A stretch of 44,901 bases of DNA from Candidatus Shapirobacteria bacterium (GTDB lineage Bacteria > Patescibacteriota > Microgenomatia > UBA12405), in the NCBI GenBank assembly GCA_028704635.1, contig JAQWFB010000004.1, positions 66,656 to 111,556 on the forward strand, given 5' to 3'. Made by a program: the position numbers and the translations under genes. Numbering within the stretch: the stretch's first letter is position 1; each line of letters starts with the position of its first letter. Below, piece after piece: positions 1,728 to 26,840 of this stretch. The notes beneath the pieces are model-generated. The model was not told the origin of the DNA. It did not search any database and was given only the letters and a program-made list of their open reading frames with translations.

Positions 1728-3416
1728 ATGTTTTCCGAGATTATTTTAAAAAACAAAAAAATAATAGACAAATCTTTTTCAGAATCAGATTTTTTAGATC
1801 TTTTGTTAAAAAATCGTCAAATTAAAAAATCAGACTATGATGATTTTTTTAAACCTCATTTTCCTATCGATTTAGATTTCAACGTTAATAAAAAAGAACT
1901 AAAAAATGCCACAAATAGGGTTAATTTAGCCATTAAAAATAATGAAAATATTTTAATTTATGGCGATTATGATGTTGATGGTATCACTGCCACCGCCATT
2001 CTTTGGCAGGTTTTATACCAAAAAGGTGCCAAAGTTTTGCCATTCATTCCAGATCGCGAAGCCGATGGTTATGGTATTAAATCAAAGTCATTTTTCGATT
2101 TTGAAACTCAAAAAAAGATTCATTTTGATCTTTTAATAACCGTCGATAATGGTATTGTGGCCAATCTCGAGCTTGAAAAAATTGCCAAAAAAAACACCGA
2201 TATTATTATTGTCGATCATCATTTGCCGACTGAAGATTTACCTAAAGTTTCAGCCATAATTCATTCCACCGATTTTTCTGGTGCGGCTCTTTCTTGGTTT
2301 TTTTCCACCCAATTCGATAAAAATGCTGATATTGGTTTGGCCGCTGCTGGAACTGTGGCTGATTGTCTTCCTTTAGTTAGTATTAATAGAAGTATCGTTG
2401 TTCATGGTTTAAAATCTTTGCGAAAAAATCCCAATCATGGATTAAAAAAATTAATCGAAGTCAGTGGTATTAAGCAAGATTCGGTTTCTGCTTATGATTT
2501 AGGTTTTGTCATTGGTCCGCGAATCAATGCCGTCGGACGTCTTTCAAATCCAACTGAAGCCCTCCGACTTTTATGCAGTCAAAATTCAATCCAGGCCGAT
2601 AAATATGCCCAAAATTTAGACAAATTTAATAAAGACCGTCAGGATATTCAAAAAGAAAATTTAAAAATCGCCGAAGAGATTATCAGTAGAGACGTTCTGC
2701 AGAACGTCTCTACTTTAAATAAAAAAAATGTTTCCACTCAAAATAAATTAATTTTTATTTCCCATAAAGAATTTTTACCAGGAATCATTGGCTTAATTGC
2801 CGGTCGTTTAACCGAAAAATATTATTTACCCTCAATTATTATCAGCGTTGGCGATGAATATTCCAAAGGTTCTTGCCGATCAATCAAAGAATTAAATATC
2901 GTCGAATCACTTCGACAGTTTAATGACGATTTAGTTGACCTAGGTGGCCATGCCGGTGCTGCTGGCTTCACTATTAAAACCACTAATATTAAAAAATTTC
3001 AAAATAAAATTACTGATTACATAAATCAACAGCTTAAAGATATTGATTTAAAACCAACAATTATTGTCGAATCAGAAATGAAATTATCTGCAGTCAATAT
3101 TAAAAATTGCCGATTAATAGGAAAATTAGAGCCATTTGGCATTGACAACACCAAGCCTTTATTTCTATTTAAAAATCTTCGCATTATTCAAAAAAGAGTT
3201 CTCGGTTCTACTGGTGATCATTTAAAACTAAAGCTCGATGATCCCAATACTAATAAATTAGAAAATATTCCCGCCGACGCCATTGCTTTTAAAAAAGGTG
3301 ATTTAGATAATCAATTTCAAAATGGTGATTTAATTAATATAATTGCCTCCCTTGATTTAAATATCTGGAACGGCCAAACCTCTCCCCAACTCATCGTCAA
3401 AGAAATCTTTACCTAA
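1728..3416 (+). CDS. recJ: single-stranded-DNA-specific exonuclease RecJ
   Basis: DYDVDGITATAIL, VDHH, GPRINAVGRL, GGHAGAAGFT (DHH/DHHA1 motifs). Confidence 0.96.
   Translation: MFSEIILKNKKIIDKSFSESDFLDLLLKNRQIKKSDYDDFFKPHFPIDLDFNVNKKELKNATNRVNLAIKNNENILIYGDYDVDGITATAILWQVLYQKGAKVLPFIPDREADGYGIKSKSFFDFETQKKIHFDLLITVDNGIVANLELEKIAKKNTDIIIVDHHLPTEDLPKVSAIIHSTDFSGAALSWFFSTQFDKNADIGLAAAGTVADCLPLVSINRSIVVHGLKSLRKNPNHGLKKLIEVSGIKQDSVSAYDLGFVIGPRINAVGRLSNPTEALRLLCSQNSIQADKYAQNLDKFNKDRQDIQKENLKIAEEIISRDVLQNVSTLNKKNVSTQNKLIFISHKEFLPGIIGLIAGRLTEKYYLPSIIISVGDEYSKGSCRSIKELNIVESLRQFNDDLVDLGGHAGAAGFTIKTTNIKKFQNKITDYINQQLKDIDLKPTIIVESEMKLSAVNIKNCRLIGKLEPFGIDNTKPLFLFKNLRIIQKRVLGSTGDHLKLKLDDPNTNKLENIPADAIAFKKGDLDNQFQNGDLINIIASLDLNIWNGQTSPQLIVKEIFT
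2685..2714. repeat. 30-bp perfect palindrome (28-bp GTAGAGACG-family element) inside recJ, in frame
   Basis: AGTAGAGACGTTCTG|CAGAACGTCTCTACT. Confidence 0.95.
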
Positions 3417-24981: not shown

Positions 24982-25716
24982 ATGTCATCAACTAAACCTG
25001 TCTCAAAACGCCTATTCATCGGCAGTTTACCTTATCGGTTCACCGAAGGGGAACTACTTTCTATTTTTATTACCGAAGGTAAAATTGTCTCCGTCCGCAT
25101 TGTCAATAACCGTTGGGGTCGAAGTCGCGGTATGGCTTATGTTGAATATGAAAACCTTGAAGATGCCATTCGTGCTAAAGAAAAATATCATAATTATTTC
25201 ATTAGTGATCGCACTATTATTGTTGATTATGCCGAACCAGATCCTTATTTAACTGAAGAAGGTAAAGCTCGTCATGAAGAATCAGTTGAAAAACATCCAA
25301 ATCGTCGTCAAGTCCAAGTTTTTTTACCCCATCCCGACAGTGACGTTTCCGATTACCAACAACAAAAAAAATCTCTGGACAATCGTCAATACCCACCTCG
25401 TCAAGCATCTTCAGTTCGTTCATCAGTTCCCAAAGAAGAAAGAAAACCTCGCAAATACAAAGGTGGTAAACCAGTTTTCAACTCTCTTGGCAGATCATTA
25501 AATCGAAATACCACCGGCGAATATGTCCCAAAATTTTTTCCAACTACTGCCGCTGCTTCTCCAAATAAAAAGAAATTTCGCCCAAAGATGGGCCAAAAAC
25601 CAGAGTATAAATCCAGTTCTGATCTCCATGTCCGAACCACCGTTTTTAAACAACGATCATTTGGTTCTAAAGTCGGCGCCAAGTTCGCCTTCAAAACCAA
25701 AAAAAAACAAAGATAA
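24982..25716 (+). CDS. RRM RNA-binding protein with long basic low-complexity tail
   Basis: RLFIGSLPY, RGMAYVEYE; Lys/Arg/Ser/Pro-rich C-terminus. Confidence 0.88.
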   Translation: MSSTKPVSKRLFIGSLPYRFTEGELLSIFITEGKIVSVRIVNNRWGRSRGMAYVEYENLEDAIRAKEKYHNYFISDRTIIVDYAEPDPYLTEEGKARHEESVEKHPNRRQVQVFLPHPDSDVSDYQQQKKSLDNRQYPPRQASSVRSSVPKEERKPRKYKGGKPVFNSLGRSLNRNTTGEYVPKFFPTTAAASPNKKKFRPKMGQKPEYKSSSDLHVRTTVFKQRSFGSKVGAKFAFKTKKKQR

Positions 25717-25722
25717 TTATTT

Positions 25723-25752
25723 TGTAGAGACGCCAGATCTGGCGTCTCTACA
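25723..25752. repeat. 30-bp perfect palindrome (28-bp GTAGAGACG-family element), intergenic
   Basis: TGTAGAGACGCCAGA|TCTGGCGTCTCTACA. Confidence 0.96.
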
Positions 25753-25763
25753 TTGAAAATCAT

Positions 25764-26840
25764 ATGAAAAATAATTCACCAATAATTGGTTTAGCTCCCA
25801 TGGATGGCATCACCGACGAAGCCTATCGTCTTCTTCAAACCGAAATTGCCAAACCAGATTTAATTTTTACTGAATTTGTTAGTGCGGAAGGTATCAGTCA
25901 TGGTGGAGTTAAATTATATGACACACTTTTATTTTCTGCCAAAGAACGCCCAATTATCGGCCAATTATTTGGTAAAAATCCAGAAAGTTTTTATAAGTCA
26001 GCCATTATTTTATCGGAATTAGGTTTTGATGGTGTCGATATTAACATGGGTTGTCCCGCCAAAACTGTCACTCAAAATGGTAGTGGTGCCGCTCTCATTG
26101 GTAAACCAGATTTAGCTGTTGAAATAATTCAAGCCACTAAAAAGGGGATTGATGATTGGTTTTCCGGCAAAATCAAAGTCACTGATCTTAGTCTCAACCA
26201 AAAAAGCCTTGCCGTTATCGAAAGAAATAAAAAATATTCTGTCTTTGATTTTGTAGAGACGCATCATGATGCGTCTCTAACTACCAAAAAACAAACGTCT
26301 CTACCCAAAACCAAACCAACCATCTCCGTTAAGACTCGTCTCGGCATTTCTGAATCAATTATCGAAAGTTGGGCCTCAATTTTATTGGCTCAAGACTTAG
26401 ATTTTTTAACCATTCATGGTCGCACCCTTAAGCAAGGTTATGCCGGATCTGCTGATTGGTCCGAAATTCAAAAAGTTGTTGAGTTGGCCAAAAATACTAA
26501 AACTAAAATTTTTGGTAATGGCGACATTCAATCAAAATTCCAAGGTTTAGAATTTTGCCAAAAGTACGGTGTTAATGGAGTTTTAATTGGCAGAGCCGCT
26601 TGTGGCAACCCTTGGTGTTTTAACGATTACACCGCCACTCCAAAAGAGCGATTTTCCGCAATGCTTCTTCATGCCCAATTTTTTACAGAAATTTTCCCCA
26701 ATCGTCGTTTCGACAGTCTCCGTAAAAACTTTTTATTTTATGCTTCCGGTCTATCTAATGCCAAACAACTTAGATCAAAATTAGTCCGATTAAATTCAAT
26801 TGAAGACCTTTTACAACTTGAAGCCGACTTTCAATCCTGA
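25764..26840 (+). CDS. dus: tRNA-dihydrouridine synthase
   Basis: GLAPMDGITDEAYR, VDINMGCPAKTVTQNGSGAALI, VKTRLG, LTIHGRTLKQGY, GNGDI, GVLIGRAACGNPW. Confidence 0.95.
   Translation: MKNNSPIIGLAPMDGITDEAYRLLQTEIAKPDLIFTEFVSAEGISHGGVKLYDTLLFSAKERPIIGQLFGKNPESFYKSAIILSELGFDGVDINMGCPAKTVTQNGSGAALIGKPDLAVEIIQATKKGIDDWFSGKIKVTDLSLNQKSLAVIERNKKYSVFDFVETHHDASLTTKKQTSLPKTKPTISVKTRLGISESIIESWASILLAQDLDFLTIHGRTLKQGYAGSADWSEIQKVVELAKNTKTKIFGNGDIQSKFQGLEFCQKYGVNGVLIGRAACGNPWCFNDYTATPKERFSAMLLHAQFFTEIFPNRRFDSLRKNFLFYASGLSNAKQLRSKLVRLNSIEDLLQLEADFQS
26253..26304. repeat. 28-bp GTAGAGACG-family palindrome in frame in dus, plus an adjacent half-arm (CGTCTCTAC, 26296-26304)
   Basis: TAGAGACGCATCA|TGATGCGTCTCTA at 26254-26279. 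Confidence 0.93.

Follow-up and report, generated by a model that had tools for sequence, protein, structure and literature searches.

Fixed-arm palindromes with variable cores in a Shapirobacteria genome: probable double-foot REPs whose core is shared in and around individual transposase genes

The short palindromes described here, which have fixed arms and a variable self-complementary middle, are very probably non-autonomous mobile double-foot REPs of the TnpAREP subclass 2.4/RAYT group 4 type. This kind of element has already been described; what the present analysis adds turns out to be the role of the variable middle (the core) as a tag tied to each transposase gene. The unit would be 28 nt long (sometimes 29), with a 5' GTAG foot on either strand, an AGACG stem segment common to the whole family and a variable palindromic core. 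A palindrome found across phyla is in this way tied to a specific transposase type, and its core behaves as a tag of the REPtron (a RAYT together with its REPs). This offers a handle on how REP transposases and REPs co-diversify, with respect to the switching of cores, their specificity and their symmetry about the dyad.

The following features were located in the window, by which we mean the whole 44,901-nt stretch of Candidatus Shapirobacteria DNA that was analysed.

2686..2713, no strand assigned: double-foot REP with core TTCTG/CAGAA (GTAGAGACGTTCTGCAGAACGTCTCTAC), an exact match, in frame within recJ (ORF 1728-3416)
2727..2737, plus strand: possible decayed extra arm AATGTTTCCAC, 13 nt past the recJ element
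25724..25751, no strand assigned: double-foot REP with core CCAGA/TCTGG (GTAGAGACGCCAGATCTGGCGTCTCTAC), an exact pattern match
26253..26280, no strand assigned: double-foot REP with core CATCA/TGATG (core CATCATGATG), in frame in the variable loop of dus
26294..26304, plus strand: extra right arm AACGTCTCTAC, 13 nt past the dus element

Two exact copies of the pattern GTAGAGACG-N10-CGTCTCTAC are present in the window, and shuffled sequences gave zero matches. The sequence-only reading had counted three 28-bp copies with identical arms; this holds for the copy in recJ and for the one upstream of dus, but the copy inside dus ends in A (CTAA) and has one mismatch to the pattern. The recJ frame matches the Pfam families DHH, DHHA1 and RecJ_OB. 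According to ORFs and Pfam, the copy upstream of dus is intergenic, with an RRM-protein ORF (24982-25716) on one side and dus (25764-26840) on the other, and positions 25723 and 25752 flank it with an additional complementary T/A. The possible decayed arm in recJ differs from the extra arm in dus by 3 mismatches and stands at the same 13-nt spacing. The extra right arm in dus is comparable to the tandem arrays found by RAYT genes in another genome, G025 (L211:2481-2620 and L210:2696-2805), in which the right arm CGTCTCTAC and a site-specific spacer of 12-13 nt together make up the repeated unit, with a period of 21-22 bp. On a viral contig (L366:3405-3643), whole elements stand in tandem at 42-bp spacing. 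Tandem extra arms were also considered as a part of the element unit itself, and this was rejected, as they are a minority feature.

The palindromes form a dispersed family, as a search for further copies confirmed. Throughout the genome (1.0 Mb, 16 contigs; referred to as G000) we found 18 exact copies, all of them 28 bp long with 10 bp between the arms in a search that permitted gaps of 0-30, while the reversed pattern, used as a genome-wide control, gave 0 copies. Three further copies have one mismatch and one has three. It had been proposed that each core is perfectly palindromic, which proved slightly overstated genome-wide: the core is perfect in 13 of the 18 exact copies, and the remaining 5 carry 1-2 mismatches of the transition type (A.C or G.T). 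About half of the copies examined in this genome lie within protein-coding genes, namely recJ, dus, pheT, ligA, pth, dnaX and uvrB, as well as genes for a Wzy/TPR protein, an unidentified protein and a RAYT, and a gene whose relative in G009 is leuS. There is a weak preference for a pyrimidine before the element and a purine after it. Among the papers listed by a literature search with the bare sequence GTAGAGACG, there were only primers and similar unrelated matches. A second family of double-foot palindromes, GTAGGGG...CCCCTAC, also exactly 28 bp long, has three copies in the same genome (G000:C12:66645-66672, C12:103110-103137 and C16:9608-9635), one of which is 21 bp away from a GTAGAGACG copy.

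Comparison of orthologous loci with and without the element, which had been suggested as a check, revealed empty sites both in recJ and in phages. The recJ genes of G003 and G004 lack the element and are 45 bp shorter at its position. The site of the window's intergenic copy is empty in G003, G004 and G006. As to phages, among the matches listed in the scan of relatives the element at one phage gene was present only in the sister lineages L399 and L400. The homologues have diverged too far (flank identity 70-90%) for a target-site duplication or the exact junction of an insertion to be fixed. In the variable loop of dus, three genomes carry three different REP cores (those of G003 and G009 differ from the window's), and G004 is free of REPs. 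The same loop (window 26220-26320, orthologues L257-L275) holds several unrelated palindromic repeats in various relatives, and is apparently a permissive insertion spot.

The statement that similar palindromes occur in other phyla was borne out by a cross-phylum pattern scan: among the matches listed, they are present in at least Bacteroidota, Cyanobacteria, Chloroflexota, Spirochaetes, Planctomycetes, Patescibacteria and others, and also on viral contigs. Closer to the window's genome, they were found in 21 of 57 relatives, with a maximum of 41 per genome, and in this sample all positives belong to the window's own family. In a sample of 294 genomes from the phylum, 17 carried them.

An encoded Y1/HUH transposase, whose presence the sequence-only reading had proposed to look for, was indeed found. 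A Y1_Tnp search gave matches adjoining the palindromes, and the RAYT genes in the regions retrieved carry the palindrome in frame, translated as VET...ASL. In the window's genome this gene is the following ORF.

L206:14373-14948, minus strand, contig C15 of G000 (a contig other than the window's): RAYT, Pfam Y1_Tnp

Its product scores 28.2 bits against Pfam Y1_Tnp (cut-off 23), its match to NCBIfam NF047646 (REP-associated tyrosine transposase) is significant (E=8e-13) yet below the cut-off of that family, and the sole PDB match of its profile is the TnpAREP structure 4er8. The motifs NHVH, WQ and YIKNNP match the set NH[IFV]H, WQ and YIxNNP given for subclass 2.4 in PMC6006769. The palindrome lies in frame between the HuH and Tyr motifs, as do 38 of the 41 internal copies among the RAYT-like genes compared, 37 of 54 of which contain one. 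The motifs and the Pfam, NCBIfam and PDB matches point to a REP transposase, and the motifs, together with the REP within the gene and the double foot, fit the published description of TnpAREP subclass 2.4/RAYT group 4 (PMC6006769); as judged from its sequence, the C15 ORF is a probable REP transposase of this type. No flanking REP was present within 400 bp of it; flanking REPs occur at 18 REPtrons elsewhere. The genome also contains a second RAYT-like gene (G000:C11:190027-190629; L208:1522-2133) with the repeat-encoded inserts GAGLVPAQ and TRAGTTNNRATTRVAPT, which probably derive from another REP family, and RAYT-like matches within a 1924-aa open frame (G000:C12:97266-97769).

Palindromes and RAYTs occur together. 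All 13 relatives with a strong match to the RAYT profile bear palindromes, and none of the 36 palindrome-free genomes has a strong match; as the profile was partly built from genes picked for carrying elements, the test on relatives was repeated without the genomes that had contributed to it (p=2e-4). In the phylum sample (n=294), both were found in 10 genomes, the palindrome only in 7, a RAYT only in 2, and neither in 275 (p=1e-12). The 7 genomes with palindromes only may have lost the RAYT, it may have been missed, or the genomes may be incomplete.

By analogy with studied relatives, mobility of these elements may be envisaged as follows. Where the DNA is single-stranded, as at a replication fork, the element would fold into a GTAG-tagged hairpin, which the Y1/HUH RAYT would recognise, cleave and move by strand transfer; for TnpAREP proteins of groups 2 and 3, recognition of single-stranded hairpins that bear a GTAG tag and cutting at CT dinucleotides are on record (PMC8266576), and the RAYT discussed here probably acts on replication-exposed hairpins in a similar manner. 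Because the foot is double, the two strands would be equivalent substrates. After insertion a copy would drift, and insertions would persist between genes as well as in those protein loops that tolerate them, the net change in length there preserving the reading frame. The elements observed look like spent insertions, many of them within housekeeping genes.

The core is a REPtron-specific tag, common to the copies in and around one RAYT gene. In 18 REPtrons having both internal and flanking copies, the mean edit distance between their cores is 0.78, as compared with 5.82 after shuffling (minimum 3.83 in 2000 shuffles). We considered whether cores simply track RAYT phylogeny, and found no support for this: similarity of RAYT proteins is hardly reflected in similarity of cores (Mantel r=-0.09, 140/2000), and the cores of related RAYTs are often unrelated. 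Two G025 RAYTs that are 70% identical, for instance, have the cores CACGATCGCG and TTGCATGCAA. As copies within and beside a RAYT gene share their core, most of the many cores of G000 would be traces of several REPtron lineages that exist or once existed. Seven of its 11 core types match RAYT-internal cores of other genomes at an edit distance of at most 1 (random palindromic cores gave 1.07 such matches, maximum 5), and the remaining four are two edits away; the former result suggests that core variety is mainly variety of REPtron lineages. The C15 RAYT carries only the core CGCCATGGTG, present in 2 copies in the genome, and most copies would therefore need RAYTs that were lost or are foreign, or else a relaxed core specificity. 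One may go further and regard the core as a swappable specificity cassette, with group 4 RAYTs rewriting whole palindromic cores in concert, both for the copies within and next to the transposase gene and, at times, at other sites that are already occupied; arms would then stay fixed across phyla while dyad-symmetric cores turn over. We offer this as a speculation, and consider it rather improbable.

The halves of the core covary strongly, which answers the proposal to check for it. Of the 115 distinct 10-bp cores compared, 96, 102, 109, 85 and 92 have a Watson-Crick match at the first to the fifth (central) core pair, respectively, whereas 29-48% is expected from column composition; p ranges from 3e-15 to 4e-51 over the five pairs, values which treat distinct cores as independent, while related cores are not. 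For the central pair (92/115) p=3e-16. A core length of 10 is dominant, followed by 11. The centre is mostly pyrimidine-purine-pyrimidine-purine (CATG, TGCA, CGCG or TATA in 34 of 51 perfect cores), and perfect cores are shared between taxonomic sets above chance, though weakly. In the few pairs of orthologous copies that differ by point changes, these changes are asymmetric (e.g. L202 vs L204), which argues against selection for symmetry at each site. The idea that a hairpin, a cruciform or symmetry itself is maintained rather than the sequence can be upheld in part: the hairpin-type architecture is conserved while cores vary, but maintenance site by site is not supported, given the asymmetric drift of copies and their likeness to spent insertions. 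The symmetry is most readily understood as a property of mobile lineages, each REPtron having its own core.

Two other processes could add to this explanation. The first is an exchange of cores between copies, in which an existing element would be the target and its core would be replaced while the arms are kept. In two phages the same start codon is preceded, at a distance of 16 nt, by an element whose core differs in sequence and length between them (CAATTAATCG in L399 and TCACAATGTGG in L400), different cores with flush flanks are seen in L376/L387 (CGATTAATCG) and L290 (TGCCATGGCG), and within a REPtron the core changes in step in internal and flanking copies, though related RAYTs differ in core. 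On the other hand, independent insertion at the same permissive site might produce the same picture: insertion offsets in dus differ, and other repeat families occupy this loop too. L290 and L376 lie within a repeated context of about 80 bp and may be paralogous, while the flanks at leuS and in L015/L065 are flush on one side at most. The different cores at a few orthologous sites fit an exchange of cores as well as repeated insertion where a site tolerates it, and we regard exchange as rather unlikely.

The second process is a copying that regenerates symmetry, such as interstrand template switching at a fork, by which one half of the core would be rewritten from the other; imperfect copies would in this way regain their perfection, and any new core would be symmetric from the start. 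The two central pairs would lie in a 4-nt hairpin loop, and symmetry therefore extends beyond the need of a hairpin; they are nevertheless still mostly Watson-Crick (92/115 and 85/115). Moreover, the cores TTCTGCAGAA, TTCTGCGGAA and TTCCGCGGAA, which are neighbours by one compensatory step, occur together in G009, where the RAYT on contig C95 has TTCTGCAGAA both inside and beside it. However, the outer pairs are accounted for just as well by stepwise compensatory change under selection during transposition, point-changed orthologous copies remain asymmetric, and zero direct conversion events were seen among the copies compared. We find regenerating copying, and with it symmetry of new cores from the start, unlikely. 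Finally, hairpins or cruciforms maintained by the host at each site for a local function (terminator, mRNA stability or binding site) are very improbable: the window copies are predicted to fold strongly as DNA (-11 to -13 kcal/mol) and symmetry extends through the dyad, but the window region 25600-26400 contains 0 intrinsic terminators (a GC stem followed by a T run), no Rfam family was found in the region scanned, about half of the examined copies are inside protein-coding genes, orthologous copies drift asymmetrically and close relatives have empty sites.

As mobile double-foot REPs, the palindromes can be compared with several known systems. Cyanobacterial very small mobile repeats (SDRs) are reportedly dispersed mobile sequences of 20-30 nt, and resemble the present family in these properties. 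REPINs (Bertels and Rainey 2011, PMC3116915) are, like the present family, non-autonomous elements associated with RAYTs, but consist of two inverted REPs and a spacer, whereas the unit here is a single palindrome with a 10-bp core; identity with REPINs was rejected on this ground. The GTAG REP families (Di Nocera et al. 2013, PMC3733652) are likewise GTAG-tagged palindromic repeats, some copies of which lie within genes, frequently those for replication and repair, and are known from Cyanobacteria, Chloroflexi and Planctomycetes. Their tag is unpaired at one end and their loop usually non-complementary, while here there are feet at both ends and pairing continues to the dyad. The closest likeness is to the REPs of subclass 2.4/RAYT group 4 (Corneloup et al. 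2018, PMC6006769). Those too are double-foot REPs with 5' GTAG and 3' CTAC ending a long stem, with REPs in frame inside tnpAREP between HuH and Tyr and others flanking the gene, with the NHxH, WQ and YIxNNP motifs, and with an occurrence in Bacteroidetes, Cyanobacteria and scattered phyla. In the main text of that paper we found no GTAGAGACG family, no division into core and arms and no match between internal and flanking cores. By contrast with that description, a single arm sequence is here common to several phyla, in a host whose lineage has small genomes.
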